From NCBI GenBank assembly GCA_019312835.1, contig JAFDCJ010000103.1:1-33983 (forward strand): a stretch of DNA of 33,983 nucleotides, written 5' to 3'. Source of the stretch: Deltaproteobacteria bacterium (GTDB taxonomy: Bacteria > Desulfobacterota > Desulfobacteria > Desulfobacterales > JAFDCJ01). This document shows positions 992-32,846 of this stretch, in pieces. The notes under the pieces were generated by a model. That model did no database searches, had not been told where the DNA came from, and was given only the letters and a program-made list of their open reading frames with translations. Position 1 is the stretch's first letter; each line of letters begins with the position of its first letter. Both the position numbers and the translations under genes were made by a program.

Positions 992-1033
992 CAAGAATGT
1001 TGAAATCGGAATGCGGAATTCGGAAGCTGTCGG

Positions 1034-1113
1034 GATAGCTGACTTCGAGCGATAATATCATAACGCACGACTAATATACTAGAATCGAAGTAGTATTCGA
1101 TACTTCAGCTATC
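1034..1113. repeat. Intergenic inverted repeat, 'AGCTATCAGCTATGA' word family
   Basis: The spacer between the short permease and the ATPase contains GATAGCTGA (1034-1042) and its exact complement TCAGCTATC (1105-1113). The word continues on the right as repeated AGCTATCAGCTATGAACT units up to about 1139. A related word (AGCTTTGAGCTTTCAGCTT) reappears near 31831-31850. The left arm is short, so folding is less certain than for other repeats in this window. Confidence 0.5.
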
Positions 1114-1179
1114 AGCTATGAACTATCAGCTATGAGCTGGCACTGGAAGTGCCTCGGGTGAAACGACAAAGGAGATGCC

Positions 1180-1917
1180 ATGGCAGGGGCCGGCAGTATT
1201 GTTCGAGTTACGGGTGTTACCAAAGTATTTAAGCTCGGCAAGATCGACGTCCATGCTCTCAAGGGGATAGATCTTGAGATCGTCAAAGGTGACTATATTT
1301 CCATCATGGGGCCGTCCGGATCCGGCAAAAGCACCCTTTTTAACATGATCGGGGGCTTGGATAAACCGACTTCCGGCAAAGTCTTCATCGATGAGGTGGA
1401 CATTGCGCAACTGGATGCCTACGAGTTGGCCTGGCTGCGTTGCCGCAAAATAGGCTATATTTTTCAAACCTTTAACATTATTCAGGTTATGACCGCCCTG
1501 GAAAACGTGACCCTGCCAATGGTTTTTGCCGGCATGAACAATGACGCGGCCGTTGACAAAGGCATGGAGCTTCTCCATCTGGTTGGCCTGGGTGATCGTT
1601 TCAGCCATAAACCCTTTGAACTTTCCGGCGGCCAGCAGCAGCGCGTTGCCGTTGCCAGGGCGCTGGCCAATGATCCGGCAATCATCCTGGCCGACGAGCC
1701 CACCGGCAACCTGGATTTGACCACCGGGGAAGAGATCATCTCGCTGTTGAAACGGTTGAGCCAGGATCGCGGTGTAACGGTGATTTCGGCGACCCACGAT
1801 TTTAAAATGCTCAATGTTTCAGACCGGGTGATCTGGATCCGGGACGGCCGGGTCGACAAAATCGAGGACCGCGAAGAACTGTCGATTTCCATCGGTCAGA
1901 TTGGATCGAGGGAATAG
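1180..1917 (+). CDS. ABC transporter ATP-binding protein, LolD/MacB type
   Basis: This 245-aa cytoplasmic ATPase energises an FtsX-type ABC transporter. The nucleotide-binding motifs are complete: Walker A GPSGSGKST (44-52), Q-loop Gln96, signature LSGGQ (148-152), Walker B ending ILADEP (169-174) and switch His206. The segment AWLRCRKIGYIFQTFNI (84-100) is typical of the LolD/MacB/FtsE group that pairs with FtsX-fold permeases. A strong Shine-Dalgarno (AAAGGAG) precedes the ATG. It lies between the two permease genes, and the giant permease starts about 130 bp downstream, so it most likely drives both. LolD itself is an alternative name, but no LolC/E-type pair or lipoprotein context is present. 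Confidence 0.93.
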   Translation: MAGAGSIVRVTGVTKVFKLGKIDVHALKGIDLEIVKGDYISIMGPSGSGKSTLFNMIGGLDKPTSGKVFIDEVDIAQLDAYELAWLRCRKIGYIFQTFNIIQVMTALENVTLPMVFAGMNNDAAVDKGMELLHLVGLGDRFSHKPFELSGGQQQRVAVARALANDPAIILADEPTGNLDLTTGEEIISLLKRLSQDRGVTVISATHDFKMLNVSDRVIWIRDGRVDKIEDREELSISIGQIGSRE

Positions 1918-2048
1918 TTGCGGGTAACGAGTTGCCGGCGGCAGAGATCGGCGCAGGGTTGGTCACCGTGCCGACCGATGTCCCGTAACCGTTGAAGGCG
2001 CGATTGATTTTGTCACATCCGAATGCAACAATTAAGGTTGTTATAAAA

Positions 2049-5000
2049 ATGAAAAAAAGACGTCTGACATATCAATTACCAACGGATGGTGATGGTATTG
2101 ACGGCATACCGGCATTGAATCTTCGGTTCAACCGTCGCGCCACGCGCACCGCGCGGCCCGGAACCCGCCACTTTTTGTTTCTCTTCCTATCACTGTTACT
2201 GTTAAATTGGCTGTTACCGGCGACCGACGCCCTGGCAGCGCCCAACGAACCGGAGGCCTTCAAAGAAACAATCTTGCGGCTGTCTTCTTTTGGAGACCGC
2301 AGCACAGGCTCCGACGGTAACCGGGAAGCCGCAGCCTATATCAAGGAACGGTTCGAACAACTTGGCTTTGAGACCGTTGGGACCCACGAATTTGCGGTTC
2401 CCGTCTTGCAGGATGAAAAAAGCACCATCAGCATACCTGGCCGCGTGGAAGCACTGCCTATCCGACCGCTGTGGGGTAACGCGGTTACGCCTCAAACCAT
2501 TGCGCCTCCCGGAATTAAAGCCCCGCTGGTCTATGTCGGCCGGGGCGACCTGCACGATCTTAACGGCAAGGCCATCGAGGGCGGCATCATCCTGATGGAG
2601 TTTGATTCCGGTAAAAACTGGCTGCATGTTGCCAATCTGGGTGCCAAGGCCTTAATATACGTGGATCGCGGGACATCATCCCGAGTCCGGTTTGAAGAGA
2701 AGTTTGAGCTTTCGCCCATTCAATTTCCCCGTTTCTGGATGCCGGCCAGGCAGCTCGAGGATTTGTTCCCCGGCTTTGAAACCAGGCCGGCCGGCCGGCT
2801 GGCCGAAAACGTCAACCTGGTATCGAAAACAAGCTGGCGCAACCTTATCACCCAAAATGTGTACGCCATTGTTCCCGGAGCCGATCCCGATCTCAAGGAG
2901 CAATCGGTGATGGTGGAGGCGTTTTACGACAGCACCGCCTGGGTTGCCGGCCTGTCGCCCGGAGCCGATGAAGCCTTGAGCGTCGCCACCCTTTTGAATC
3001 TGGCGTGGTATCTAAGGGATCATCCTCCCGGCCGGACGGTTGTTCTGGTTGCCACCAGTGGACGTGCCCAGACGCTGGCCGGGATGCGTGAATTGATGTG
3101 GAGCCTGACGACACGGTCCAAAATCCAGCGCGAAATGAAGCGCGATTTGCAGGCCCTGGTAAAAAAATCACGCAAAACCATTACCGCATTGGAGCAGGCC
3201 GCATTTGAGCCGGCAGATCCGGATGACGCGGCTGCGCAGGAGCGTCAAAGCCTGATCAAGGCGGCTCTGGAAGAACGTATAAAGACGGTATCCGATCATC
3301 TTTCACGCCGCTTGATATGGCTGCGAATGCGGGCGAAAGCGATCCAGAACCAGGCGCTCATTGACCAGCTGGCCGCTGAACGGATGCTGCTGCGGCGGCT
3401 GGTGTGGAAGCCGGCCTACACGAATTTACTGCCCGACGAGCGACAGATGCTCACCCGCCTGGTGCCTGAGGCAATTGAAGACCAAAAAGCCATTCTCGCC
3501 GATGCCAAAAATCAGCTGGACCTGTTGGCCAGTGCCAGGGCGTTTCGCGGCGAGGTCAAAGTCTTCGATCTGACAGCGGCGGTATCGCTTCATCTATCCA
3601 GCCACGGCGACGGGTTCGGTGCCTTTAATTATGGCTGGCAGTATCCGTTTCGAGAGAGGATTAACCGCACGGGGGCCTATGCACTGCTCGACGAGGTCCT
3701 GCGGGCCGGGGCGCTGAAGGTTGAAAACGCCACCGGCGACCAGGGCATTTACAAGGATACCCTGCGGCCGAGCCGGCGACGTTCATGGCAGAGTTATTTT
3801 CTGGATCGTCCGGCTCTGGGCGGCGAAGTTACCGCCCTGGCCGGAATTCACGGGTTGACCTTTGTTACCACCCATGATGCCCGATCGGCCTGGGGCACGC
3901 CCGGCGACACCCCTGATGGCGTCAATTTTGAATTCGCCTTAAAACAGAATGCGGTTGTGGCCGGCCTGGTTCAGCATCTGGCCGGTGCGCCCCAAATCCA
4001 TGAAGGTGTGTTCCCCCGCAACGGGATCAGTGAAATCAACGGCAACGCCAAGTTTTTGCGCCACGGAGAGCTGTTTGCGGACAAGCCCGCGCCGGGATCG
4101 GTGCTGCTGTGCTACCAGGGACCGGCCCGCCATTACGCCATCGTGGACCACATGGGCAAATTTCACCTGCGGGGCCTGGCCGACAAGAAACACAGTTACC
4201 ACAAAGTGATTTTCGAGGGGTATAAATTTGACGATGTCACCGGCAAGGTCATGTGGACCATCGACAAAGAGCAAACCGGTAAAAACTCTTACCGGGTGAA
4301 AATGTTTCGCCGTCACATGGAGACCGATCTGATCATGTTCGCCAGCAAGGGCATAACCCTGTTCGATCTTCTTGAGCCGCGCACATTTCGTTATCTTCAC
4401 AAAGGCAATGTAATTGACGGCCGGCGTGAGGCCGACCCCCTGCGATATTTTTACAGCCGCCTGGACACCTGGATTTCCTATTACCGCGATGCATCCAGCA
4501 TCACCACCATTTTTTTAGAGGACGGCACCCCGTTGAAGCTGACCCTGTCGGACAGTGTGCTGCGCAAGAAATTGATTTTGTTGAACGCCACCAAAGACAA
4601 CCCCCAGGGCAGCGGTTACATGGTGGAAAACTGGCCGGTTTTACATCGCACGGCGTATAGGGTCGCTCGGGATATCTGGACCCTGCTGACACCGCGCATT
4701 GAAAACCTTGAAAAACGTGGGATTTTCAACGAACGCATCCGCAATCTTCAACAGGCCGGGATCAAACAGCTGGAGCGGGCGGAGACCGCTTTGGCAAAAC
4801 AGCAGTATGACCAGTTTTTCGAAGCCACCGCCCGTTCATGGGCGCTTTCCAGCCGGGTTTACGACGATGTCGAGAAAACCCAGAAAGACGTCCTTTACGG
4901 CGTGCTGTTTTACATTGCCCTGTTTGTCCCCTTTGCCTTCTGCCTCGAACGCCTGCTGTTTTCCTATTCCAATATTTACAAGCGGATCGTCGCTTTTATC

Positions 5001-7028
5001 GGCATCCTGGTATTGTTGATCATCATCATCTATAATGTTCATCCTGCTTTCCGACTGGCATACAGTCCCATGGTTGTCATCCTGGCGTTCTTTATTATGG
5101 GATTGTCGCTCATCGTAACGCTGATCATCTTTTTTCGCTTTGAAGACGAAATGGCCGGGTTGCAGACCCATGCCCAGCTGATTCAATCCGGCGAAATCGG
5201 GCGTTGGAAGGCGTTTGTAGCGGCGTTTCTGCTGGGCGTCAGCAACCTGAGGCGCCGCCGTCTGCGCACCGCGCTGACCTGTGCCACCCTGGTCATCCTG
5301 ACGTTTACCATCATGAGCTTTACCTCGGCCAAATCCCTGCGGCTGCATGCGCGGGTGTTATATGACAGCCAGGCGGCCTACCAAGGTTTTCTGTTAAAAA
5401 ACGTAAACTGGAGGAGTCTGCCGCCGGAGGCCTTTGGCCGCATTGAGAATTCCTTTGGGGATCAGGCGATGGCCGTCCCCCGCGTTTGGCTGGAAGATGA
5501 GGACCGCACGCGTTCGACCAGAGTACCCGTGTATGCAAACGGCCGGGCTTTTGAAGCCCAGGGGATGGTGGGGCTTGCAGCCGAAGAGGCCCTTGTCTCC
5601 GGACTCGACGCCATTCTTTTGGCCGGGCGCTGGTTGAGGCCGGACGATGACCAGGCGGTGCTTTTGCCGCGGCGCATGGCCGAGCAGCTGAACATCGATC
5701 TTGCCCAAAACCCGGACCAGAACGTCTCGCTCTGGGGAATGCCCTTTAAGGTTGTCGGTATCTTCTCCGGCAGTAAATTGCAGGCGAGCAACGACTTGGA
5801 CGGCGAGCCATTGACGCCGGTAATCTTTCCACGGGAAATGTCATCGGAGTTGACCGAGGTGGAAGAAGAAGCAATGGAATCCGGCGATGATGTGAGGGAA
5901 TTTCAAAGCCGCTATCAGCACATTGCCGGAGATCTGACCCTCATCGTACCCTACCGCTTTTTGCTGGCGGCGGGGGGACATTTAAAGGGTGTGGCCGTCC
6001 ATCCCCGCAACCCGGATACCGTTGAAGAAACCGCCCGGGACCTGATCGATCGGTTTGGGCTGTCCCTTTTCAGCGGGGAGCCTGACGGTACCTACCTCTA
6101 CCACGCCAGTGACAGTATGAGCTACAGCGGGGTCCCCAATATTATAATCCCGCTGATTATCTCGGTTTTCATTGTTTTGAACACCATGATCGGCAGTGTT
6201 TATGAACGCAAGCGCGAGATTGGGATTTATACCTCGGTTGGACTGGCCCCTTCGCACGTGTCGTTTCTCTTTATTGCCGAGGCCATGGCCTTTGCCGTTC
6301 TCAGCGTGGTATTCGGTTATCTGCTGGCCCAGGTTACGGCCAAGCTCTTTGCCGAAACAGCCCTATGGTCAGGGATCACCGTAAATTATTCATCCATGTC
6401 GGGTGTTGCGGCCATGGTCCTGGTAATAGGGGTTGTGCTGGTTTCGGTGATCTACCCGTCCAAAGTAGCCGGTGAAATTGCAATGCCGGATATCAATCGG
6501 ACCTGGACGCTTCCGCCGGCCCGCGGCAATGAGCTCGAAATGACCCTGCCTTTCCTGATGACCTATCAAGAGCATCGCAGTATCGGCGGATTTTTATTTG
6601 AATATGTGGACGGGCACAGGGATATTACCCACGGTATGTTTTCAACGGCCGATATCGAATTCGCATTTGTCTGCCAAAGCCCGCCCGGCTTGGCTCAAAC
6701 CGCCTCCGACTGCCAGGAAGACAATTGTGACCACGAGCAGTGTCTGCAGATCAGATCCCGTGTCTGGCTGGCGCCGTTTGATTTCGGCATCATGCAGCAG
6801 GTCGAGATCCAGTTCAAGCGTGCGGCTACCGAGCCCGGTTTTCTTGAAATAACGATTCGCTTGAATCGAGAAACCGGCGAAGCCAACGCCTGGCACCGGA
6901 TCAACAAGACCTTTCTCAATGAGATTCGCAAGCAATTGCTCATCTGGCGCTCCTTTGACGACCCCACCAAGGCCGAATACGAAGCCCTGCTGATTGATGC
7001 TGAAAAAAAATTAGGGCTGGTTGAATAG
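2049..7028 (+). CDS. Giant ABC permease with degenerate M28-peptidase-like extracytoplasmic domain
   Basis: A protein of about 1659 aa. Residues 40-62 form a signal-anchor-like helix. A PA-like segment (about 158-206) and an M28-aminopeptidase-like segment (about 266-351) follow. In the latter, the family's metal-binding His-x-Asp appears as AFYDS (His replaced by Phe), GADE keeps its Asp, and the usual Glu-Glu pair is absent, so peptidase activity is unlikely. Three membrane helices lie near 948-969, 979-995 and 1008-1029. An FtsX/MacB permease unit follows, with helices near 1078-1094, 1364-1381, 1406-1427 and 1451-1469 and the loop YERKREIGIYTSVGL. The C-terminal ~190 residues are soluble, with four Cys in 24 residues. 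The ATG at 2049 was chosen because AAGG lies 11 nt upstream; a TTG at 1992 is in frame without a ribosome site. Likely partner of the preceding ATPase; substrate unknown. Confidence 0.85.
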   Translation: MKKRRLTYQLPTDGDGIDGIPALNLRFNRRATRTARPGTRHFLFLFLSLLLLNWLLPATDALAAPNEPEAFKETILRLSSFGDRSTGSDGNREAAAYIKERFEQLGFETVGTHEFAVPVLQDEKSTISIPGRVEALPIRPLWGNAVTPQTIAPPGIKAPLVYVGRGDLHDLNGKAIEGGIILMEFDSGKNWLHVANLGAKALIYVDRGTSSRVRFEEKFELSPIQFPRFWMPARQLEDLFPGFETRPAGRLAENVNLVSKTSWRNLITQNVYAIVPGADPDLKEQSVMVEAFYDSTAWVAGLSPGADEALSVATLLNLAWYLRDHPPGRTVVLVATSGRAQTLAGMRELMWSLTTRSKIQREMKRDLQALVKKSRKTITALEQAAFEPADPDDAAAQERQSLIKAALEERIKTVSDHLSRRLIWLRMRAKAIQNQALIDQLAAERMLLRRLVWKPAYTNLLPDERQMLTRLVPEAIEDQKAILADAKNQLDLLASARAFRGEVKVFDLTAAVSLHLSSHGDGFGAFNYGWQYPFRERINRTGAYALLDEVLRAGALKVENATGDQGIYKDTLRPSRRRSWQSYFLDRPALGGEVTALAGIHGLTFVTTHDARSAWGTPGDTPDGVNFEFALKQNAVVAGLVQHLAGAPQIHEGVFPRNGISEINGNAKFLRHGELFADKPAPGSVLLCYQGPARHYAIVDHMGKFHLRGLADKKHSYHKVIFEGYKFDDVTGKVMWTIDKEQTGKNSYRVKMFRRHMETDLIMFASKGITLFDLLEPRTFRYLHKGNVIDGRREADPLRYFYSRLDTWISYYRDASSITTIFLEDGTPLKLTLSDSVLRKKLILLNATKDNPQGSGYMVENWPVLHRTAYRVARDIWTLLTPRIENLEKRGIFNERIRNLQQAGIKQLERAETALAKQQYDQFFEATARSWALSSRVYDDVEKTQKDVLYGVLFYIALFVPFAFCLERLLFSYSNIYKRIVAFIGILVLLIIIIYNVHPAFRLAYSPMVVILAFFIMGLSLIVTLIIFFRFEDEMAGLQTHAQLIQSGEIGRWKAFVAAFLLGVSNLRRRRLRTALTCATLVILTFTIMSFTSAKSLRLHARVLYDSQAAYQGFLLKNVNWRSLPPEAFGRIENSFGDQAMAVPRVWLEDEDRTRSTRVPVYANGRAFEAQGMVGLAAEEALVSGLDAILLAGRWLRPDDDQAVLLPRRMAEQLNIDLAQNPDQNVSLWGMPFKVVGIFSGSKLQASNDLDGEPLTPVIFPREMSSELTEVEEEAMESGDDVREFQSRYQHIAGDLTLIVPYRFLLAAGGHLKGVAVHPRNPDTVEETARDLIDRFGLSLFSGEPDGTYLYHASDSMSYSGVPNIIIPLIISVFIVLNTMIGSVYERKREIGIYTSVGLAPSHVSFLFIAEAMAFAVLSVVFGYLLAQVTAKLFAETALWSGITVNYSSMSGVAAMVLVIGVVLVSVIYPSKVAGEIAMPDINRTWTLPPARGNELEMTLPFLMTYQEHRSIGGFLFEYVDGHRDITHGMFSTADIEFAFVCQSPPGLAQTASDCQEDNCDHEQCLQIRSRVWLAPFDFGIMQQVEIQFKRAATEPGFLEITIRLNRETGEANAWHRINKTFLNEIRKQLLIWRSFDDPTKAEYEALLIDAEKKLGLVE

Positions 7029-7125
7029 TTGGTTTTAGTTAAATAGGAAATTGGTCAAATAGAAAAATAGTTGCATATAAAAACCCGGCACCTGCGATCT
7101 GACACCTGAAACCTTAAGAATTTAT

Positions 7126-9168: not shown

Positions 9169-9278
9169 CGCTGGTTATTGGTTATTTGTTATTCGTCAAT
9201 GGAAGCCTTTTCAGACCGCATGTGTTTTGAGGTGTCTTCCAAATAATCAATAACTATTAACAATGAACGGATAATTGA

Positions 9279-11240: not shown

Positions 11241-11617
11241 AAATGAATAATGAATATCGACTATTGAATAATGATTGCTTTTGGAATGGCGAATGACATT
11301 GGGATGAAGAATGTCGATTGTCGAATGTCGAATTAAGGAATACTATCGATTCTAGCCCCCTCCCATAAGCCCTCCGGCTCGGCTAGGCGCGTCGCAGGCC
11401 GCCAGGGGAGGGAAGTTAAATCTGTCTTTTCCGGGTTTTGTAAAGAAGGATGAATCATATCCAATGCACGGAGCGAAGCGACATCCTTCGTTCGTCATTC
11501 GTCAATCCAGAGTCATTCCAATATAGGCTTGCTTCATTCTATAATTCTGATTATATTCTGACTGTTCCTCATTAGACATTCGTCAATCGACATTCGTCAT
11601 TCCAAACGGGGGCCGCT
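11241..11617. other. Noncoding spacer with nested inverted repeats
   Basis: No gene is seen in these 377 bases. The left part is built of GAATGTCGAATT-like words and the right part of the complementary ATTCGTCAATCGACATTC words. In the middle, a GC-rich element begins CCCCCTCCC (near 11356) and ends GGGGAGGG (near 11412), itself able to pair through about 7 bp. The spacer separates the transporter genes from the small exported protein and may act as a terminator or an mRNA structure. Confidence 0.6.
11309..11595. repeat. 20-bp inverted repeat, 'GAATGTCGATTG' word family
   Basis: The arm at 11309-11328 pairs with the arm at 11576-11595 over 20 positions with a single mismatch. Flanking copies of the same word extend both arms imperfectly (11241-11336 and 11487-11606). 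The arms are 247 nt apart and enclose a second, unrelated GC-rich hairpin. Confidence 0.8.
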
Positions 11618-12241: not shown

Positions 12242-12260
12242 AGAATTGGAGAGCTGGAGT

Positions 12261-12334
12261 AATGGATCGGTGGAGTGTTGGAAGGGAAGTCTGCTACTTC
12301 ATCTTTCATTATTCCAATACCCCACCGCTCCAAT
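12261..12334. repeat. Inverted repeat, 'GGAGTATTGGAG' word family
   Basis: The arm at 12261-12283 pairs with 12312-12334 at about 19 of 23 positions; one mismatch is a possible G-U pair. The enclosed loop is only 28 nt. The same word family occurs at 22721-22794. It lies between the exported-protein gene and the next reading frame. Confidence 0.7.
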
Positions 12335-12395
12335 ACGCCATTTCCCCCTTGGTGGTTTCAACAGCATTGAATCACAACCTTTTCGAATTTGACCT

Positions 12396-13650: not shown

Positions 13651-13683
13651 GTTTAGTTCAATAGTTGAATAGTTCAATAGAGA

Positions 13684-13754
13684 ATTAGTTGATTAGTTGA
13701 AGAGGCGGATTCACAAACCATTTATCTATTTAACTAATTTCCCAATCAACTAAT
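13684..13754. terminator. Inverted repeat between convergent genes, candidate bidirectional terminator
   Basis: ATTAGTTGATT (13684-13694) is the exact complement of AATCAACTAAT (13744-13754). It fills the gap between the ends of the + strand PqqD-like gene and the - strand STAS gene, where a bidirectional terminator would be expected. There is no long T-tract, so termination is inferred from position. The word belongs to the 'GTTGATTAGTTGA' family, also found at 23186-23253 and 26072-26139. Confidence 0.45.
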
Positions 13755-13755
13755 C

Positions 13756-14088
13756 CTAAAAGGATTCAAGGGCTTCCTCCATGGTGGCGACGATGGGCAG
13801 GAAAGAATCAAAACCTGCTATTTCGAAGACCTCCTTGACATAGTCCTGCATGGAGCAAAGCATGATGCGGCCATCTTCGCGCTTGATGGCCTTGGTGGCT
13901 TTTAATATTACACGCAGACCGGCGCTTGATATATAATCAAGATCCTTAAAATCAACCACCATGTTTTTTGATCCGTCGGATATCGCCTCGAATAGCTTTT
14001 GCTCGAATCCCTGTGAGGTATTTGAGTCCAGGCGACCGTTGAGCTTAAAGATATTGATGCCGCTTTGTTTTTCCTCAATGATTTCCAT
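13756..14088 (-). CDS. STAS-domain anti-sigma factor antagonist (RsbV/SpoIIAA-like)
   Basis: A 110-aa cytoplasmic STAS protein. Such proteins bind an RsbW/SpoIIAB-type kinase when unphosphorylated, freeing the kinase's other target. The conserved segment DLDYISSAGLRVILKA contains the phosphorylatable serine (Ser55 by alignment with SpoIIAA, or Ser54). Length is normal for the family. GGGAGGA sits just upstream of the ATG. It is the last gene of a - strand cluster, about 110 bp after the RsbW-like kinase gene, which is its obvious partner. A PP2C phosphatase able to reactivate it is encoded upstream in the same direction. Confidence 0.92.
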   Translation of the reverse strand: MEIIEEKQSGINIFKLNGRLDSNTSQGFEQKLFEAISDGSKNMVVDFKDLDYISSAGLRVILKATKAIKREDGRIMLCSMQDYVKEVFEIAGFDSFLPIVATMEEALESF

Positions 14089-19789: not shown

Positions 19790-19799
19790 TGCTTTTATT

Positions 19800-20061: not shown

Positions 20062-20062
20062 A

Positions 20063-20098
20063 GCGATGGGCAGTACCATCGCGTGTTTAGTTTTTAGT
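20063..20098 (+). terminator. Candidate terminator after the DUF2065 gene
   Basis: GCGATGG (20063-20069) pairs exactly with CCATCGC (20076-20082) around a 6-nt loop, directly after the stop codon. A T-rich run (GTGTTTAGTTTTTAG) follows, although the T-tract is interrupted. This may stop transcription from the DUF2065 promoter. Confidence 0.4.
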
Positions 20099-20174
20099 AT
20101 TTTGTGTTTGGTACTGAGACCATTCCGCCCTGGCGGACTGAAACACGAAACACCAAATACGAAACACCAAACAC
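20083..20174. repeat. Inverted repeat, 'GTGTTTCGTGTTTGG' word family
   Basis: The left arm (20083-20113), made of GTGTTTAGT/GTGTTTGGT words, is complementary at about 24 of 30 positions to the right arm (about 20141-20174), made of GAAACACCAAATAC words. The same family is at 28251-28277 and 32773-32846. It lies in the leader of queA. Confidence 0.7.
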
Positions 20175-21300: not shown

Positions 21301-21420
21301 CAGCTGCCGGCCAGCTGCCGGTAGAGGGTATAAGGTTGAAGGTATAGGGTTGAAATATGAGCGGCGCAAGGCCGAATTTTCAGAACCGTGAGCCCTGGGC
21401 CGTGGGCCGTGCGCCAGTAG

Positions 21421-22566
<1,146 letters not shown>

Positions 22567-22881
22567 CCGGTTTGGACAACAAAAATGGATTGCCGGTATG
22601 GGGACCGGCGCAAGTTTGGGTTGCTCTTTTCATATTCTGGCTTAACTTAAGATCCAGATCGCTATGAATTCAGTTGTCTATGATTAATAGCCAAGTAGAA
22701 GATGGTTGCCATTTAGTTTAGGAGTGCTGGAGTATTGATACAAAAGCTGAACGTGCTTTTCCAGCACTCCATTACTCCAATACTCCAGCACTCCATTGTT
22801 GGCAAATGAAAGCAAGCTACTGAACCCTGAGTCACTTAAATTTGGACTATAAAGCCTAAATAAACTGAAGGAGAATATATC
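22567..22881. other. Noncoding spacer between tgt and the NifU-domain gene
   Basis: No gene is seen in these 315 bases. It contains one strong inverted repeat (22721-22794). Near 22588-22606, GCCGG/CCGGC can form a short 5-bp hairpin. The final 20 bases carry GAAGGAG, the ribosome site of the next gene. No convincing promoter was found. Confidence 0.5.
22721..22794. repeat. 17-bp perfect inverted repeat, 'GGAGTATTGGAG' word family
   Basis: The arm at 22721-22737 (GGAGTGCTGGAGTATTG) is exactly complementary to 22778-22794, enclosing 40 nt. Additional copies of the word (CCAGCACTCCATTACTCC) precede the right arm, so alternative pairings are possible. The same family is at 12261-12334, some 10 kb away. 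Confidence 0.85.
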
Positions 22882-23103
22882 ATGAAAGAAAAAGTTGAAG
22901 CTGCACTGCAAAAAGTAAGACCGATGCTCCAGGCCGACGGCGGTGATGTTGAGCTGGTTGACGTTCAGGACGGCATTGTGACAGTTCGCTTGCAGGGTGC
23001 CTGCGGCGGATGTCCCATGTCCCAAATGACCCTTAAAAATGGGATCGAAAGAATTCTGAAACAGGAAGTGCCCGAGGTCGTGTCTGTCGAATCCGCCCCC
23101 TAG
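22882..23103 (+). CDS. NifU-like C-terminal domain Fe-S scaffold protein
   Basis: A 73-aa single-domain protein of the NifU C-terminal (Nfu) family, which carries Fe-S clusters and passes them to apoproteins. The cluster-binding motif CGGCP (41-45, with Cys41 and Cys44) follows the family hallmarks [11 protein letters not shown] and [10 protein letters not shown]. Length is normal for stand-alone bacterial Nfu domains. GAAGGAG lies 8-10 nt before the ATG. It sits between the queuosine genes and the methylmalonyl-CoA genes; a functional link to either is not established. Confidence 0.93.
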
Positions 23104-23185
23104 CAGCGGCCTGCGGCCTTTTGGTTAAATAGAAAATAGTCGAGATATGTCGAATATAGTTGATTAAGTTTATTGAGTTGATCAA

Positions 23186-23253
23186 GTTGATTGGGTTGAC
23201 AGCGGAGAACGTCCCATAGTCAAATAGATTGTTATCCCTTAAACCCAATCAAC
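23186..23253. repeat. Inverted repeat, 'GTTGATTAGTTGA' word family
   Basis: GTTGATTGGGTT (23186-23197) pairs exactly with AACCCAATCAAC (23242-23253), and the pairing continues beyond a one-base bulge (GTTGAT / ATCAAC). It occupies the spacer upstream of the epimerase gene. Just after the preceding stop codon, GGCC-TGC-GGCC (near 23108-23118) forms a small separate hairpin. Confidence 0.75.
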
Positions 23254-23277
23254 CAATCAACTGCCACAGGAGGTGCA

Positions 23278-23682: not shown

Positions 23683-23748
23683 GGCCCCGCGTTACAAAAA
23701 TCCCCGCGTGTAAAAAATTGGTATCTGGTTAATGGTTGCCGAAACCAC

Positions 23749-23833
23749 CCGGTATAAGGTATAGGGTGTATGGTATCGGGCTGAACTATCAGAATCTTCT
23801 ACCTTTTACCCTATGGCCTATACCTTATACCGG
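23749..23833. repeat. 17-bp perfect inverted repeat, 'GGTATAAGGTATAGG' word family
   Basis: CCGGTATAAGGTATAGG (23749-23765) is exactly complementary to 23817-23833, with a 51-nt centre in which further words (GGGTGTATGGTA and TACCTTTTACCC) pair imperfectly. It lies between the epimerase and mutase genes. A single arm of the same family is at about 21321-21350, in front of tgt. Confidence 0.88.
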
Positions 23834-23906
23834 CTTGGAATGGCAGCCTTAGATCTTTATACTGAACAGCATATTAAACTAAATATTCCAAAGGAGCACA
23901 CCCGTT

Positions 23907-26033: not shown

Positions 26034-26046
26034 CCTGCGGCTATTT
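26028..26046 (+). terminator. Hairpin overlapping the mutase stop codon
   Basis: AAATAGCC (26028-26035) pairs exactly with GGCTATTT (26039-26046) around TGC, and the stem includes the TAG stop codon. No T-tract follows, so intrinsic termination is doubtful; it may protect the 3' end of the mRNA. Confidence 0.45.
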
Positions 26047-26335
26047 AGTTGAAAAGTTGATTAAGTTAAATAGTTGATTAGTTTAGAGGCTTGCAGTCTT
26101 TCTGACTATCAGATCACCCCAAATTCAACCTAATCAACTGATCAACCAATCAACTAAACACACCTTTTTCTCTTGACAAAAACGGACTTGTATAGGAAAT
26201 TGCAAGTTTGATTTCATCTCTTCAATAAAAATCTACTGCATCACTGCGGCAGTCCGCAGCGCATATTCAATGCTACCTTTTCCCGCCGGCAACAGAATCC
26301 GGCAGGGAGATATAAAAGACGAAAGGAATGGGACG
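26034..26335. other. Noncoding spacer between mutase and carboxyltransferase genes
   Basis: No gene is seen in these 302 bases. The first 130 bases hold the stop-codon hairpin and an inverted repeat of the GTTGATTAG family. A perfect -35-like TTGACA lies at 26173-26178, but no acceptable -10 box follows at 16-18 nt. The last 25 bases include the AAGGAAT ribosome site of the next gene. Confidence 0.5.
26072..26139. repeat. Inverted repeat, 'GTTGATTAGTTGA' word family
   Basis: AGTTGATTAG (26072-26081) pairs exactly with CTAATCAACT (26130-26139). Further copies of both words flank the arms (26046-26085 and 26123-26158), so several registers of pairing are possible. Confidence 0.7.
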
Positions 26336-27889
26336 ATGGGTATCGTGGAAGACAAAATAAATGACCTCAAAGCCCGGCAGGCGAAAGTGCTTGAAATGGG
26401 AGGGGAAAAAGCTGTTGCCGCCCAGCGCGAAAAGGGTAAGCTGACCGCCCGGGAGCGAATCAACCTCCTGTTCGACGACGGCACCTTCCGTGAAATTGAT
26501 ATGTTTGTCAGCCACCGCTGTGATAATTTCGGTATGGAAAATGTTGATATCCCCGCTGACGGCGTGATAACGGGCCACGGCCTGGTGGACGGACGAGCGG
26601 TGTTTGCATTTGCCCAGGATTTTACTGCCCGGGCCGGCAGCCTCGGTGAAATGCATTCTAAAAAGATTTGCAAGGTCATGGACCTGGCCATGAAAGCCGG
26701 CGCACCCTTTGTGGGCATTAACGACTCCGGCGGTGCCCGGATACAGGAAGGTGTAGATGCGTTGTCCGGCTACGGCCAGATATTCTTTCGCAATTCGGCA
26801 GCCTCGGGCGTCATCCCGCAGATTTCAGCCATCATGGGGCCCACTGCCGGCGGCGCCGTGTACTCACCGGCCATGACCGACTATGTATTCATGGTAAAAA
26901 ACAGCAGCTACATGTTTATCACCGGACCCGACGTGATTAAATCCGTCACCGGTGAGGAAATCAGCTTCGAGGAACTGGGCGGCGCTAAAGCCCACAACGA
27001 AAAAAGCGGGGTCGCCCATTTTGCCTGTGAAAGCGATGAAGATGCCATCGACCGCATCAAGCGGCTGCTTTCCTATCTTCCTTCCAACAACATGGAAGAT
27101 CCGCCTTATGTCGATACCCGCGACGACCGCAACCGCACCGACGAGGCGCTGAATGCGATCATTCCTGACAACCCCAATAAATCTTACGACATAAAAGACG
27201 TTATCCGTTCCATCGTCGACAACAACGAGATTTTTGAGCCCCACGAGTATTTTGCCCGCAACATCGTGGTTTGCCTTGCCAGATTAAACGGCAGAACCGT
27301 CGGTATCATTGCCAACCAACCCAATGTGCTGGCCGGCTGCCTTGACATCAACGCTTCGGATAAAGCCACCCGCTTTATCCGTTTCTGCGATGCGTTTAAC
27401 ATCCCCATGTTGACCATTGCCGATGTGCCGGGGTATCTACCCGGCAGCCAGCAGGAATGGGGCGGTATTATCCGGCACGGGGCCAAACTTCTGTGGTGTT
27501 ATTCTGAAGCGACCGTACCCAAATTGCTGCTGGTAACCCGCAAAGATTACGGTGGATCTTATCTGGCCATGTGTTCCAAGGATCTGGGCGCCGACATGGC
27601 ATTTGCCTGGCCGACGGCTGAAATCGCGGTGATGGGGGCCGCGGGCGCAGCCAATATCATCCACCGCAAAGAGATAAAAGAGGCACAGGATCCGGAGGCC
27701 AAACGTCAGGAAAAGATCGATGAATACAACGATCTTTTTTCAAATCCCTATATAGCCGCCAGCCGGGGATACATCGACGCCGTTATTTTACCGAGTGAAA
27801 CCCGGCCGCGCCTGATCGATGCCCTTGAGGCCCTGTGCACCAAGCGTGAAACCCGACCCCCGAAGAAGCATGGGAATATTCCCATGTAG
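26336..27889 (+). CDS. Acyl-CoA carboxyltransferase, 12S/PccB type
   Basis: A 517-aa biotin-dependent carboxyltransferase subunit of the crotonase-like fold that moves CO2 between (S)-methylmalonyl-CoA/propionyl-CoA and carboxybiotin. Landmarks are VGINDSGGARIQEG (126-139), IMGPTAGGAVYSPA (166-179), the C-terminal oxyanion region GGSYLAMCSKDLGAD (406-420) and VMGAAGAANI (432-441). Length and motifs equal those of PccB, the 12S transcarboxylase subunit and the alpha subunit of methylmalonyl-CoA decarboxylase. The downstream 5S-biotin fusion and the absence of biotin carboxylase favour the transcarboxylase role. The start at 26336 follows AAGGAAT; 22 more codons upstream are open but lack a ribosome site. 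Confidence 0.93.
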   Translation: MGIVEDKINDLKARQAKVLEMGGEKAVAAQREKGKLTARERINLLFDDGTFREIDMFVSHRCDNFGMENVDIPADGVITGHGLVDGRAVFAFAQDFTARAGSLGEMHSKKICKVMDLAMKAGAPFVGINDSGGARIQEGVDALSGYGQIFFRNSAASGVIPQISAIMGPTAGGAVYSPAMTDYVFMVKNSSYMFITGPDVIKSVTGEEISFEELGGAKAHNEKSGVAHFACESDEDAIDRIKRLLSYLPSNNMEDPPYVDTRDDRNRTDEALNAIIPDNPNKSYDIKDVIRSIVDNNEIFEPHEYFARNIVVCLARLNGRTVGIIANQPNVLAGCLDINASDKATRFIRFCDAFNIPMLTIADVPGYLPGSQQEWGGIIRHGAKLLWCYSEATVPKLLLVTRKDYGGSYLAMCSKDLGADMAFAWPTAEIAVMGAAGAANIIHRKEIKEAQDPEAKRQEKIDEYNDLFSNPYIAASRGYIDAVILPSETRPRLIDALEALCTKRETRPPKKHGNIPM

Positions 27890-28003
27890 GGAGTTTGTCG
27901 GTTGGCCCGTTGAGTCCGTTAGCCCGTCGCGATGATCGGATTACAGACATTTCTTTACCGGCTAACCGGCCTACTGACCTAACCAGATTGAAAGGGTGAT
28001 CCA

Positions 28004-28234
28004 ATGACTGACGATAAGAAAATGACCGCTGCAATCGCCGCCGTCATGAGCTATCTCCAGGATGAAGAGGCCGTTTACGCGCAGGCGGCCATGGCCGGTA
28101 TGCTCCAGGCACCGGCTGCTGCCGTTAGTGCGGCCGACATCCTTAAACCGTGGGCAATGAGTGGCAGGCAGGCGCAGATGCAGATGCGCAACCTAATGCA
28201 AATGAAAACATTTCATCGCCATAAGAGCTTCTGA
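28004..28234 (+). CDS. Small soluble protein between carboxyltransferase subunits, possible assembly subunit
   Basis: A 76-aa protein with a good ribosome site (GAAAGGG) before the ATG. The N-terminal helix KKMTAAIAAVMSYLQDEEAV resembles the soluble C-terminal end of OadG/MmdD-type subunits of sodium-pump decarboxylases. An Ala-rich linker (about 30-45) follows, then a Met/Gln-rich basic tail containing GRQAQMQMRNLMQMKTFHR. There is no membrane helix, so it is not an OadG proper. By position, 115 bp after the 12S gene and 69 bp before the 5S-biotin gene, I infer a docking or linker subunit comparable to MmdD/MmdE. I cannot name the family with confidence. Confidence 0.7.
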   Translation: MTDDKKMTAAIAAVMSYLQDEEAVYAQAAMAGMLQAPAAAVSAADILKPWAMSGRQAQMQMRNLMQMKTFHRHKSF

Positions 28235-28244
28235 GAGCGATCTC

Positions 28245-28286
28245 AAAAAAGTGTTTCGTGTACCAGACACCAAACACCAATTTTTT
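28245..28286 (+). terminator. A-tract/hairpin/T-tract, intrinsic-terminator-like
   Basis: Six A's (28245-28250) are followed by GTGTTTCGTGT (28251-28261), a 5-nt loop and ACACCAAACAC (28267-28277; 10 of 11 pairs), then CAA and six T's (28281-28286). The shape is that of a bidirectional intrinsic terminator built from the GTGTTTCGTG word family. Sitting between two subunit genes of one enzyme, it may attenuate rather than stop transcription. The ribosome site AGGAG of the next gene follows directly. Confidence 0.5.
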
Positions 28287-28302
28287 ACAGGAGAACATTA
28301 AA

Positions 28303-30321
28303 ATGAGTGACGAAAATGCAGTCAAAATGACCACAATGAATTATGACAAGGACCGGCCGACGGCGGAAAATCCCGTTAAGATCGAGGATCTCAGCCTGCG
28401 CGACGGGCACCAGTCGCTGTTTGCCACCCGCGGCCGAACCGAGGATATGATTCCAGTGGCAGAAATGATGGATGAAGTCGGCTTCTGGGCCATGGAAGTC
28501 TGGGGCGGTGCCACCTTTGACACCATGCACCGGTTTCTAAACGAAGATCCCTGGGAACGAATTCGAACCCTGAAGCGTTACATTAAAAAGACCCCCTTTT
28601 CCATGTTGCTCAGGGCACAAAACCTGGTGGGCTACCGCAACTATGCCGATGACGTTGCCAGGGCCTTCGTCGAGCGAACCGCTGAAAACGGGATGGATAT
28701 TTTCAGGACCTTCGATGCCCTCAATGACTACCGCAATATTGAAACGGTGGTTCCGGTCATCAAAGCGTCTGGTAAACACTTTCAGGGCTGCATCTGTTAT
28801 ACCATGACCGAACCGCGCATGGGCGGCGAGGTTTACAACATCGACTATTTTGTCAACAAGGCCAAGGCCCTCGAAGACATGGGCGCGGACAGCATCTGCA
28901 TCAAGGATATGGCCGGGCTGATTGCCCCCTACGACGCCTATGCCATTGTCAAGGCCCTTAAAGAGAATGTCAAACCGCCGATTCACCTGCACAGTCATTT
29001 CACTTCGGGCATGTCGCCCATGAGCCATCTCAAGGCGATTGAGGCCGGGGTAGACATCATCGACACCTGCATGTCGCCTTATGCCTATCGCACCTCCCAT
29101 GCGGCCCTCGAGCCGCTGGTGATGACCCTGCTGGGCACCAACCGGGACACCGGCTTCGACATCAAGCAGCTGGCGGCCATCAATGAGAAATTTGAAAAAG
29201 AAATCATGCCCAAATACCGGCATTTGCTGGACGACACCAAGATGTCGATCATCGACATCAACGTTCTGTTGCATCAGACTCCGGGTGGCATGCTGTCCAA
29301 TTTGGTCAACCAGTTAAGGGAAATGGATGCTCTCGATAAGATCGATGAGGTTTACGCCGAATTGCCGCGGGTCCGAAAGGATCTGGGACAGATACCGCTG
29401 GTGACCCCCACCAGCCAGATTGTCGGCATTCAGACGGTCAACAACGTGCTGTTTGATGATGAGAACGAGCGCTACAAAATGATTACCGCTCAGGTCAAGG
29501 ACCTTTGCTACGGGCTGTACGGTAAAACCGCGGTTCCCATCAATCCGGAAGTCCAGAAAAAAGCCCTCAAAGGCTATGAGCGCGGTGAGGAGCCGATTAC
29601 CTGCCGACCGGCCGAGGTCCTGGAGCCTGAACTGGCGAAAGCCAAATCAGAAACGGAGGGTTTGGCCGTCGATCTGGATGATGTGCTGATTTATGCCCTT
29701 TACCCGGTTACCGGCAAAAAATTTCTGAACTGGAAATATGGCAAAGAGCAGCCGCCGCCCGAGGTCAGACCCAGAACCCTGGAAGACGCCAAAGCCGAAC
29801 TGGAGCTGCTTAAAAAGGCCAAAGCAGGCCAGCTGGTTGAAAAGTCGACCAAAGCCGCGCCTCCCAAAGGCGAGAACCTGCGGACCTTTAATGTGTTTGT
29901 GGATGATGATTTTTTTGAGGTTGGGGTCGAGTCCCTTGACGGCGCCCCGATGATCAACTATGTCCAGCCGATGGCGGGAGCGATGCCCGCCCCCGCCATG
30001 CCGGCGGCTGCTCGGGCAGCCGCGCCGGCCCAGGCACCGGCGGCCGCACCGGCCGCTGCCAAAGCGGCGCCCCCAGCCGAAGCGGCCCCCGCACCGGCGG
30101 CTGTCGAGGGCACGCCCTTGAATGCCCCGATGCCCGGACTGATCATCAAATATGAGAAAAATGTCGGTGACGCCATCAACGAAGGCGAAACAGTGGTCAT
30201 CTTAGAGGCCATGAAGATGGAAAATGCCCTGCCGGCTCCGGCCAGCGGCACCATCAAGGCCATCAACTACAGCAGTGGCGATTCGGTTGCCAAGGGTGAT
30301 GTGCTCTGTGTAATCGGATAG
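28303..30321 (+). CDS. 5S-type carboxyltransferase fused to biotin carrier domain
   Basis: A 672-aa enzyme that exchanges CO2 between carboxybiotin and pyruvate/oxaloacetate. The TIM-barrel starts with LRDGHQS (32-38) and contains the lysine motif CIKDMAG and metal-site HLHSH. A conserved carboxylase domain follows (to about 520), then a long Ala/Pro linker (about 545-600) and a biotinyl domain with EAMKMEN, biotinylated Lys638. This layout matches oxaloacetate decarboxylase alpha, pyruvate carboxylase subunit B, or a fusion of transcarboxylase 5S and 1.3S. With the 12S gene upstream and no membrane decarboxylase beta subunit, methylmalonyl-CoA:pyruvate transcarboxylase is preferred. ATG 28303 is preceded by AGGAG; 15 upstream codons were excluded. 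Confidence 0.93.
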   Translation: MSDENAVKMTTMNYDKDRPTAENPVKIEDLSLRDGHQSLFATRGRTEDMIPVAEMMDEVGFWAMEVWGGATFDTMHRFLNEDPWERIRTLKRYIKKTPFSMLLRAQNLVGYRNYADDVARAFVERTAENGMDIFRTFDALNDYRNIETVVPVIKASGKHFQGCICYTMTEPRMGGEVYNIDYFVNKAKALEDMGADSICIKDMAGLIAPYDAYAIVKALKENVKPPIHLHSHFTSGMSPMSHLKAIEAGVDIIDTCMSPYAYRTSHAALEPLVMTLLGTNRDTGFDIKQLAAINEKFEKEIMPKYRHLLDDTKMSIIDINVLLHQTPGGMLSNLVNQLREMDALDKIDEVYAELPRVRKDLGQIPLVTPTSQIVGIQTVNNVLFDDENERYKMITAQVKDLCYGLYGKTAVPINPEVQKKALKGYERGEEPITCRPAEVLEPELAKAKSETEGLAVDLDDVLIYALYPVTGKKFLNWKYGKEQPPPEVRPRTLEDAKAELELLKKAKAGQLVEKSTKAAPPKGENLRTFNVFVDDDFFEVGVESLDGAPMINYVQPMAGAMPAPAMPAAARAAAPAQAPAAAPAAAKAAPPAEAAPAPAAVEGTPLNAPMPGLIIKYEKNVGDAINEGETVVILEAMKMENALPAPASGTIKAINYSSGDSVAKGDVLCVIG

Positions 30322-30325
30322 CTGA

Positions 30326-30520
30326 CAGAAGACAGAGGACAGAAGACAGAGGACAGAGAACAGAAGACAGAGGACAGATCGCAGAAGACAGAAAGCAGAT
30401 GACAGAGGAATAGATGATACTATTATTCTGTTCTCCATAGTTGAAATCCTGTCATCTGATCTCTGACTTCTTAGAATGTCATCTGTCTTCTGACATCTGA
30501 CCTCTGTCTTCTGTTTTTTT
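30326..30520 (+). terminator. Long inverted repeat ending in a T7 tract, 'GACAGAGGACAGAAG' family
   Basis: CAGAAGACAGAGG (30326-30338, repeated at 30340-30352) is exactly complementary to 30501-30513, which is followed at once by seven T's (30514-30520). Many imperfect copies of the word fill both arms (30323-30412 and 30462-30513). It lies between the 5S-biotin gene and sucC and has the form of a very long intrinsic terminator or attenuator. Confidence 0.55.
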
Positions 30521-30583
30521 GGCCTCCAACCCTGATATACCGCATTCACATATTACCATTGCATCGTTAGGAGATGTACAGAA

Positions 30584-31747
30584 ATGAAAATCCACGAATA
30601 TCAGGCCAAGGAATTATTCAAAAAGTATGACGTGCCCGTGCCCCAGGGTAGCGTCGCTTTTACTGCGGATGAAGCGGTCGAGGTCGCCGGGGCGTTGGGC
30701 GGTTATCCCGTGGTGATAAAAGCCCAGATCCATGCCGGCGGCCGCGGCAAAGGCGGAGGGGTAAAACTGGCCCAATCCCAGACGGAAGTTGCTGATGTTG
30801 CCGGACAGATTATCGGCATGAATCTGGTGACCCACCAGACCGGTGCCCAGGGCCGGCCGGTTAAGAAAGTTTTGGTGGAACAGGGGCTTAACATTGCCCA
30901 AGAGCTTTATCTGAGTATTATCCCGGATCGGGAAACGGCCAAGATTGTGGTGATGGTCAGTGAAGCCGGCGGGATGGATATCGAGGAGGTGGCGGCCAAA
31001 ACACCGGAAAAGATCATCAAGGTCGGCATCAATCCCCTGCAGGGTATCCAGGCCTATCACTGCCGGGAAATAGCCTTTGGTTTAAACCTGTCCCCGGCGG
31101 TTATGAAGCCTTTAGTGGCCATGGTCAAAAATCTCTACCGGATGTTTGTCGAGTATGATTGTTCGCTGTTGGAGATCAATCCCCTGGTGATCACGGCCGA
31201 AGAGAGCGTGATTGCCCTGGATGCCAAGATCAATTTCGATGATAACGCTCTTTTCCGCCACAAGGATATTCTGGAATACCGCGACCTGGACGAGGAAGAT
31301 CCGCTGGAGGTGGAGGCATCCAAATTCAACCTCAACTACATCAACCTGGACGGCAATGTGGGCAACATGGTCAACGGTGCCGGCCTGGCCATGGCCACCA
31401 TGGATCTGATCAAGCTGGCCGGCGCAGAACCGGCCAATTTTCTTGATGTCGGCGGCGGTGCCAGCGCCGAAATGGTCGAAAACGGTTTTAGAATCATACT
31501 GAGCGATCCCAACGTGAAAGGAATTCTGATTAATATTTTTGGCGGCATCCTGCGCTGTGACGTGCTGGCCGAGGGCGTTGTTCAAGCCGCCAGGAAAACC
31601 GGCATCAAAGTTCCGGTGGTGGTGCGCATGGAGGGGACCAACATCGAAGAAGGTCGCCGTATCCTGGCCGAATCGGGTCTGAAATTGACCACGGCCACCG
31701 ACCTGAAAGACGCCGCCGCCAGGGTAGCTGAGATGGTTAGCGGGTAA
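30584..31747 (+). CDS. sucC: Succinyl-CoA synthetase beta subunit (ADP-forming)
   Basis: A 387-aa ATP-grasp subunit that binds nucleotide and, with SucD, interconverts succinyl-CoA + ADP + phosphate and succinate + ATP + CoA. Landmarks are the start [20 protein letters not shown], the nucleotide loop [16 protein letters not shown] (46-61), the metal segment [10 protein letters not shown] and the C-terminal ligase part with LDVGGGAS and [13 protein letters not shown]. Length equals that of the family. TAGGAGATG lies 8-14 nt before the ATG. It is followed by sucD, and it closes the pathway begun by the mutase upstream. Confidence 0.97.
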
Positions 31748-31889
31748 GGGCCTTCGGCCGTCTTAGGTTAGAGGTTTGAGGTTGGAGGCTGAGCGGCTGA
31801 ATATTCAAGCCTTCAACCTGCTGCTTTATAGCTTTGAGCTTTCAGCTTCGAGCGATTAATCCTTTTTTAGATATTATCGGGGCAAAACC

Positions 31890-32762
31890 ATGAGCATCTT
31901 CGTAGACAAAAATACACGAGTGGTCGTACAGGGCATTACCGGCAAAGAGGGGCAGTTCCACACCCGTCACTGCATCGATTATGGTACCCGGGTAGTGGCC
32001 GGGGTGACGCCGGGTAAAGCCGGTCAAAAAATGGATGATGTCCCTGTGTTTAATACGGTCCGGACAGCCGTGGCGGAAACCGGGGCCAACTGCAGCCTGA
32101 TTTTTGTGCCCCCGCCGTTTGCAGCCGATGCCATCATGGAGGCCGCGGATGCCGGCATCGGTGTCATCGTGGCCATTACCGAAGGGATTCCGACCCTGGA
32201 CATGATGCGGGTCATGAATTATCTGGCAGGCAAGCCCTCGCGCCTGATCGGCCCTAACTGTCCCGGCATCATCACCCCGGGTGAGGCCAAAATAGGCATT
32301 ATGCCGGGCCCGATTCATAAGCCCGGGGGCCCGATTGGGGTCGTATCGCGTTCCGGAACCCTGACCTATGAGGTGGTCAATCAGCTGACACGGCAGGGCA
32401 TCGGCCAGAGCACCTGTATCGGAATCGGCGGCGATCCGATCATCGGATCCAACTTTATCGATTGCTTGCGCGCTTTCGAGGAAGATACCGACACCAAAGG
32501 CGTGGTGATGGTCGGTGAGATCGGCGGAACCGCCGAGGAGGATGCTGCCAGATTTGTATCTGAAAAAATGAGCAAGCCGGTTGTCGGTTTCATCTCCGGC
32601 GTTACAGCGCCGCCGGGGCGTCGTATGGGCCATGCCGGTGCCATTATCAGCGGCGGCAGCGGCACCGCCGAAGCCAAGATCAAGGCCATGCAAGCGGCCG
32701 GAATCCATGTCAGTAAAAACCTGGGAGCGCTGGGCGAGCTGTGTGCTTCCGTATTTAAATAG
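31890..32762 (+). CDS. sucD: Succinyl-CoA synthetase alpha subunit
   Basis: A 290-aa subunit carrying the CoA-binding Rossmann domain ([22 protein letters not shown], with GITGKEG at 15-21) and the active-site histidine phosphorylated in catalysis, His248 in [13 protein letters not shown] (245-257). [19 protein letters not shown] (121-139) and SRSGTLTYE (153-161) are also family motifs. It follows sucC after 142 bp containing weak AGCTTTGAGCTT words. A GGGG-containing ribosome site precedes the ATG. Length is standard for the family. Confidence 0.97.
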
Positions 32763-32772
32763 TTAGTGTTCG

Positions 32773-32846
32773 GTATTTGGTGTTTTGTGTTAAGGACTCC
32801 ATGTCTGCAAGGCTTTGCTAAATACCAAACACGAAACACCAAATAC
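32773..32846. repeat. 19-bp inverted repeat, 'GTGTTTCGTGTTTGG' word family
   Basis: The arm at 32773-32791 pairs with 32828-32846 over 19 positions, with one potential G-U pair (32786 with 32833) and the other 18 perfect. The centre is 36 nt. It occupies almost the whole gap between sucD and hypA. Confidence 0.85.

Follow-up and report, generated by a model that had tools for sequence, protein, structure and literature searches.

Opposed arrays of short words in the intergenic gaps of a Desulfobacterales genome: a candidate class of dispersed, fast-changing DNA hairpins

The gaps between genes in a 33,983-nt stretch of DNA from a Desulfobacterales bacterium (bases 1-33983 of contig C103 in the 6.0-Mb draft genome G000; this whole stretch is the window in what follows) carry short words that are repeated in tandem and often face an inverted array of the same word in the same gap. 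We favour the notion, to which we give about an even chance, that such gaps hold dispersed non-coding DNA repeats capable of forming hairpins, here called heptad-word hairpins, and that these turn over fast by slippage of units and by concerted change of the two arms. Dispersed DNA hairpins are favoured because there is no RNA signature, because no RAYT (REP-associated tyrosine transposase, REP being the repetitive extragenic palindrome) was found in the genomes richest in the words, and because no exact inverted copying is seen.

Abundance and anatomy of the word arrays

That the gaps contain inverted word pairs had been claimed in an earlier note on the window, and this observation is confirmed, its extent being larger than first described. 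Eleven pairs can be read directly in the sequence where that note had placed them, with perfect arms of up to 17 bp (22721/22778). Chance fails as an explanation: among 296 gaps of 60-500 bp, taken from 717 kb of G000 with genes called by a simple hexamer model of that same genome, 40.9% contain an inverted repeat scoring at least 11 (ungapped, +1/-2) against 1.1% of dinucleotide shuffles, and at a score of at least 13 the figures are 30.7% and 0.0%, so that shuffled spacers lie far below the real ones. Reverse-complement matches between different gaps attain a score of 11 in only 4.1%, and the words are therefore gap-specific, even though they are found across the rest of the genome. In a larger sample of 447 gaps from 1.06 Mb of G000, tandem arrays with a period of 6-9 occur in 137 gaps (31%) versus 9 shuffled gaps (2%), and arrays of period 7 or 8 reach a density of 1.08 per kb of gap versus 0.0065 per kb of coding sequence, which is thus 165 times poorer.

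The repeated words are indeed present as claimed and can be described more precisely as tandem arrays with a period of 7, also of 8 and 9, while the seven families originally counted stand as a minimum, the real number being well over fifteen. The statement that most spacers contain such words is true within the window, but genome-wide it applies to about one gap in three. One proposed pair must be given up, since AGCTATC, thought to be inverted near 1034, forms an array at 1105-1138 without a matching opposite arm, and the gaps at 7029, 21301 and 31748 do contain words but are mixed or partly mixed. Three further hairpins or arrays of the window had been overlooked, namely GTTATTG (9173/9240), GTTNGCCC (27894/27958) and GGTTNGA (31765).

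Among 203 arrays the period is seven in 140, eight in 38, nine in 23 and six in 2. The period-7 words, read 5' to 3' on the G-rich strand, include GGTKTCA, GACAGAN, GGTTCAN, GTRTTTN, GTTATTN and GGTTNGA as well as GGTATAN, GAATRTC, CGGAATG, GTTRCGN, GGCGCAN and GATRCTN; period-8 words are GTTGATTN, GGAGTNNT and GGAATNNT, and period-9 words are CTAAAGTGN, ACAGGATTA and ACGCAGAGG. Variation within the units is confined to one or two fixed positions. The layout of a hairpin is that of two opposed tandem arrays of one degenerate 7-9-nt word flanking a loop, with a median loop length of 69 nt for the best pair. The order of the arrays is highly uneven, as gaps with two arrays among the 447 are G-rich then C-rich in 38 cases, the reverse in 4, G-rich twice in 5 and C-rich twice in 2, and the same order prevails over its reverse in congeners (22 vs 3) and in loci of other Desulfobacterota (32 vs 7). 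Since the structure is symmetric, the G-rich strand thus points into the gap at either edge. Some families have the C-type on the left (AAATTCGAAGCACGAA, CCAAGCACCAAATT). Furthermore, 31 of 44 neighbours in the G-rich then C-rich order (70%) belong to one word family, compared with 5.8% for pairs formed across gaps.

Hairpins and arrays of the window

The elements of the window are as follows, with the strand given for the two single arrays.

1007..1025, plus strand: single G-type array CGGAATGCGGAATTCGGAA of the CGGAATG word, in a mixed gap without a matching right arm
1105..1138, minus strand: single array TCAGCTATCAGCTATGAACTATCAGCTATGAGCT (AGCTATC), of another family than CGGAATG, in a mixed gap
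7017..7113: mixed gap, GTTGAATAGTTGG on the left and TGACACCTGAAACC (GGTKTCA family) on the right at 7100-7113; fold z +0.5, that is, no hairpin
9173..9254: GTTATTN hairpin, GGTTATTGGTTATTTGTTATTCG ... CAAATAATCAATAAC (9240-9254); the gap is 17 bp in congener G005
11299..11605: GAATGTC hairpin, arms 11299-11333 and 11571-11605; fold z -5.4
12248..12341: GGAGTNNT hairpin, arms 12248-12282 and 12309-12341; fold z -4.9
13654..13757: GTTGATTN hairpin, best pair 13681-13694 and 13744-13757
20083..20174: GTGTTTN hairpin, arms 20083-20112 and 20145-20174; fold z -3.6
21326..21415: mixed gap, GGTATAAGGTTGAAGGTATAGGG on the left and GAGCCCTGGGCCGTGGGCCGTGCGCC on the right
22721..22796: GGAGTNNT hairpin, 17-bp perfect arms 22721-22737 and 22778-22794; fold z -7.4
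23158..23262: GTTGATTN hairpin of period 8-9, one arm ending at 23200 and the other starting at 23242, with the 23186/23242 pair; a similar arm-loop-arm is found on contigs C169, C355 and C3 of G000
23749..23833: GGTATAN hairpin, 17-bp arms 23749-23765 and 23817-23833, upstream of methylmalonyl-CoA mutase
26045..26158: GTTGATTN hairpin downstream of methylmalonyl-CoA mutase, with the 26045/26123 pair and loop motif TCTGACTATC
27894..27984: GTTNGCCC / CCGGCTAA hairpin, in the only window gap with words persisting in congeners
28251..28278: short pair GTGTTTCGTGT / ACACCAAACACC
30324..30515: GACAGAN hairpin, left array 30324-30404 and right arrays 30449-30515; fold z -9.3
31765..31853: partly mixed gap between two succinyl-CoA ligase subunit genes, GGTTNGA on the left and AGCTTTGAGCTTTCAGCTTCGAGC on the right
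32773..32846: GTGTTTN hairpin, arms 32773-32791 and 32828-32846 (18/19 match); fold z -5.4

The genes that flank these gaps belong to ordinary metabolism and include queA, tgt, a biotin carboxylase subunit, two succinyl-CoA ligase subunits and, as we infer from their sequences, methylmalonyl-CoA epimerase and mutase. The mutase has its best matches in Desulfobacterales. Downstream of the mutase, window positions 26034-26269 and the corresponding congener loci (L205, L209, L214) have TTTTTCTCTTGACAAAAA...TGTATAGGAA in common, which is likely a sigma-70-type promoter (TTGACA) for the next operon adjoining an unconserved word hairpin.

Turnover among congeners

Orthologous gaps were taken from congeners with conserved gene order, and their words differ almost everywhere. 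The gap before methylmalonyl-CoA mutase contains GGTATAN in the window, GTTATTN in G007, CGGAATG and GTTGCGN in G006 and G005, and several words in G001, and is 33 bp long in G003. Likewise, gaps 9169 and 30322 are only 17 and 24 bp long in G005, gap 22567 is 1 bp in G006 and 23 bp in G001, gap 21301 is 5 bp in G003, and gap 31748 between the succinyl-CoA ligase genes measures 142 bp in the window versus 8 bp in G006. Only gap 27890 retains its words (in G007 and G002), with differing unit numbers.

Unit slippage is seen most clearly in the distant genome G238, in which two otherwise nearly identical copies of a 195-bp block are one 7-bp unit apart in each array. The suggestion that replication slippage is involved is supported by one exact 7-bp unit gained or lost per arm of a recent duplicate, and the suggestion of a dispersed product by words recurring genome-wide, by the nearly empty gaps of relatives and by the fact that one family or more has a core that is conserved. 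The block itself is found at L273 and L277 (1421-1615) and includes 70 bp of non-word flank. In G006 the gap homologous to window gap 1918-2064 (L199:2063-2756) holds a run of about 500 bp made up of GATGCTG/GATGCTC/GATACTT units, in which a single word array has grown to some 70 copies.

Loops and a shared core

Within most word families the loops are unrelated. A universal loop motif was sought, and only motifs confined to a family were seen, such as TGACTATC in 5 loops (Markov expectation 0.0). In the GAATATC family, however, there is a conserved core, about AAGGTATTCTGTCGATTTTATAAAAGACAGAGCGAAGCGATTCCATCCTT, whose profile finds 35 places at E<1e-3 in G000 and its relatives. This core is flanked by GAATATCGAATGTCGAAG arms at L250:2043 and L051:1089 of G000 and L199:12046 of G006, by CTAAAGTG arms at L216:5416 of G000 and also in L113, L167 and L205, by AATGACTAATG arms at L037:14643 and L047:2613 of G000, and by CAACATCGAACGTC arms in L124 and L122. 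The two arms around a core match each other at a score of at least 10 in 68%, against 11.8% for left arms paired with right arms of a different class, and over the four word classes own arms score 11.9 and different-class arms 7.1; the class labels are approximate, coming from loose patterns that are partly wrong, and we therefore rely on arm scores and hand-read examples. Since own arms match while the words differ, it follows that both arms can switch to another word around a core that stays the same. The core lies in the same orientation as the genes in 5 cases and opposite in 3, its elements have no credible match in Rfam 15, and a weak fragment of it (profile E=0.3) occurs inside the GAATGTC hairpin of the window at about 11468-11487.

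A core of this kind brings to mind non-autonomous mobile elements resembling REPs or miniature inverted-repeat transposable elements (MITEs), in which a transposase would act on the hairpin ends and the words would be terminal repeats. The 35 places in the own and related genomes, the near-empty gaps of congeners and the dispersed copies that are alike in arm, loop and arm are all in agreement with such an origin, which we nevertheless regard as doubtful. The Y1 transposase profile PF01797 (RAYT/IS200-type) has no match at E<=1e-8 in G142 and G238, the genomes richest in one word, so that mobilisation by RAYT is ruled out for these two, and only one weak match in G000. Moreover, most families have no common loop, unit number, word and phase are too variable for fixed terminal repeats, and no target duplication was seen at congener junctions, which are unreadable at 80-85% identity. 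Terminal inverted repeats bounding a conserved core are a property of one core class and not of the GTGTTT, GACAGA, GGAGT and GGTKTCA families.

Two further observations concern loops and arms. The gaps at L038:797 and L038:12942 have the words GTTGAT and GTTATT, respectively, and a common loop end CAGATCCTTCAAACTA. In a separate family of about 150 bp (L039:1454-1671, L041:2416-2912, L029:6428-6776) the core GCTCACGTACTGCGTGTACGCTCCGC is again constant, whereas the outer arms vary among copies (AAAACCAAATTG, AAACGGTTCAAAA, GGCGAATTGAAA).

Distribution beyond the genus

Among 297 Desulfobacterota genomes, searched with the reversed pattern as control, GGTKTCAGGTKTCAGG (GGTKTCA) occurs in 19, with 101 copies in G000, 304 in G142 and 89 in G238, both of other families, 16 in G219 and 13 in G241, and the reversed control gives zero in all five. 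GTTCANGGTTCANGGTTC occurs in 66 of the 297 but not in G142, G219 or G241, so that every genome has a vocabulary of its own, taken from a shared pool. The words abound in some distant families of Desulfobacterota and are missing from most others, and Desulfonema magnum, which can be cultured, has word arrays too. The idea that words travel as one package was rejected, as G142, richest in GGTKTCA, lacks GTTCAN arrays. Beyond the Desulfobacterota, ACCGCAGAGGACGCAGAGGACGCAGAGG...CCTCTGCGTCCTCTGCGTCCTCTGCGGTT and pairs like it, inverted arrays of one family, are found on plasmid 1 of Gemmatirosa kalamazoonensis (Gemmatimonadota), where 49 kb hold three of them. Phages gave no match to the GACAGAN hairpin. 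Salmonella plasmids of 4.7 kb (e.g. NZ_CP064913.1:374-417) have an unannotated stretch with 85-93% identity to a GGTKTCA tandem query, possibly a chance resemblance of replication-origin iterons.

The recurrence of words bears on a purely local origin by mutation, in which slippage would build an array and foldback template switching its inverted arm, independently in each gap. Whole-unit changes, degenerate units and the intergenic position would all be expected, but the same words are found across gaps, genera and families with a zero reversed-pattern control, several gaps have the conserved core in common, and neither arm is a recent copy of the other, all of which makes this origin very unlikely.

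Possible functions and mechanism

The hairpins could alternatively be selected as RNA in the mRNA, as 3'-end stabilisers, attenuators, processing sites or intercistronic insulators, and the earlier note had considered the first two of these. Predicted folding of the window gaps is indeed strong (sense strand, mean z -3.6), and gaps with hairpins are slightly more frequent among co-directional genes (30.6%) than among divergent (23.2%) or convergent ones (19.6%). However, the antisense strand folds equally well (mean z -3.3), divergent gaps carry words too, congeners with the same gene order have empty or differently worded gaps, and at gathering score no Rfam 15 family matches within the window. 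Selection for RNA pairing was furthermore assessed from arm mismatches on the transcribed strand of co-directional gaps, and was rejected because G-U is no commoner than A-C (53 vs 48, or 61 vs 71 with weaker segments included). A function in RNA thus seems unlikely, and stabilisers and attenuators find no support. Ordinary terminators likewise fail as an explanation, since intrinsic terminators are characterised by a short G+C-rich stem, a small loop, a U-run and a position 3' of genes, whereas the hairpins have a median best-pair loop of 69 nt and are present in divergent gaps too.

If selection acted on pairing rather than sequence, the repeats might instead be DNA sites for an abundant architectural protein or cruciforms that absorb supercoils. 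Arms that stay complementary through a change of word around one core, the polarity rule, the lack of strand preference and the strictly intergenic position would fit such a role, but many gaps are mixed or single-armed, hairpins are missing at many congener gaps, and the words are too different for one binding protein. With words so diverse, binding by a single specific protein is unlikely, and we consider the role as a whole distinctly improbable.

According to the reading that we favour, that of dispersed DNA hairpins, the repeats would spread ectopically, into gaps where an insertion costs nothing, their arms would lengthen and shorten by slippage, and units would be exchanged with other copies of the same word. 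A single-stranded or cruciform hairpin may then serve as template in replication or repair, by which a change of word would pass from arm to arm, and the arms would stay in one word family because the hairpin itself is the template. Such repeats would exert no gene-specific regulation at the RNA level, and their effect on the host would be generic, by way of gap spacing or a DNA hairpin, or neutral.

Several points weigh against this reading. The remaining 13 of the 44 neighbours in the G-rich then C-rich order (about 30%) are of mixed families, slippage alone leaves the polarity rule unexplained, and arms from one gap are no closer to each other than to arms of the same family from other gaps. 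The last comparison, from which the bias of choosing gaps by pairing score was removed in the final test, gives p=0.039 with all families together, a value carried by the mixed GTTGATT family. Exact inverted duplication (a foldback copy) as a recent event was rejected on these grounds, and templating of one arm by the other, which we infer, must if it happens be old or quickly scrambled, since the arms are not closer copies. Neither target duplication nor element boundary nor mobilising enzyme was found, and since most families have unrelated loops, only in the GAATATC/CTAAAG class has the copying of whole elements been shown, with hints of it in a few further families.

A more speculative scheme, and the least probable of those considered, is telomerase-like writing, in which a putative polymerase would repeatedly copy a 7-9-nt nucleic-acid template onto 3' DNA ends, and the two ends of a break would be given one and the same word and then joined. 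If true, it would account for the 3'-ward course of the G-rich strand into the gap on either side and for arms that have a word in common and are yet independent arrays rather than copies, as well as for the degenerate units, the dominance of period 7 and the many words (many templates) per genome. No enzyme or template of this sort was found, no search aimed at one having been made.

Relation to known repeats

The closest described analogue of the heptad-word hairpins appears to be the P6b stem-loop of the Nostoc tRNA-Leu(UAA) group I intron, which has degenerate heptads on both sides of the stem (Class I TDNGATT, Class II NNTGAGT), varies in copy number by whole heptads, and has repeatedly and independently had one class replaced by another with the stem kept, the origin of the classes being called unknown by the authors (PMC4476775, PMC3488679). 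The two systems have in common the degenerate 7-nt tandem units (140 of our 203 arrays), a stem formed by two complementary arrays, whole-unit length variation and class replacement. Whereas P6b is one site in a transcribed intron with two classes, the word hairpins are intergenic and genome-wide, occupy hundreds of gaps per genome with many classes, have neither G-U bias nor strand preference, and show a polarity rule, mixed gaps and a common core with different words. In such a genome-wide setting the class switches of the Nostoc trnL stem, so far unexplained, would also become testable. Marine Beggiatoaceae have direct repeats of a single heptamer, TAACTGA, for which a horizontal origin was proposed, and these are likewise intergenic and patchy across distant lineages (PMC4679880). 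They consist of one heptamer without an inverted partner, unlike the many words and the 38 two-array gaps in G-rich then C-rich order described here.

No description of inverted arrays of multiple words was found in the open literature, to which the search was confined (subscription journals lying outside its scope), and queries with the word sequences retrieved only unrelated open papers. The class fills a third of gaps, its words are common to distant lineages and are yet rewritten within one genus, and it documents, in natural genomes, slippage associated with hairpins as well as concerted change. On the practical side, the arrays inflate operon gaps in central metabolism and can mislead gene callers and terminator predictors.

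The short tandemly repeated repetitive (STRR) sequences of cyanobacteria are tandem intergenic heptanucleotide repeats with lineage-specific words, and to our knowledge no description presents them as inverted arrays that have a polarity and exchange words about a core. REPs, their hairpin-forming doublets (REPINs) and MITEs are dispersed intergenic hairpins with many copies, but they have a fixed consensus and are often associated with a RAYT or transposase. The word hairpins are arrays of variable number and class, in contrast to the fixed palindromic consensus of 20-40 nt in REP/REPIN. A separate REP-like family of G000, inverted pairs of GTGGGAGCGGCTTTCCAGCCGCGATT (L046:2071-2345, L056:5992-6417, L033:1188-1427), does have a fixed consensus and is in this respect unlike the word arrays. 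A second gap family of fixed consensus in the same genome is GTCATGCCGGACTTGATCCGGCATCCAG ... CTGGATTCCGG(A)TCAAGYCCGGAATGAC, found at L055:190-424, L076:8319-8529 and L063:4051-4281.

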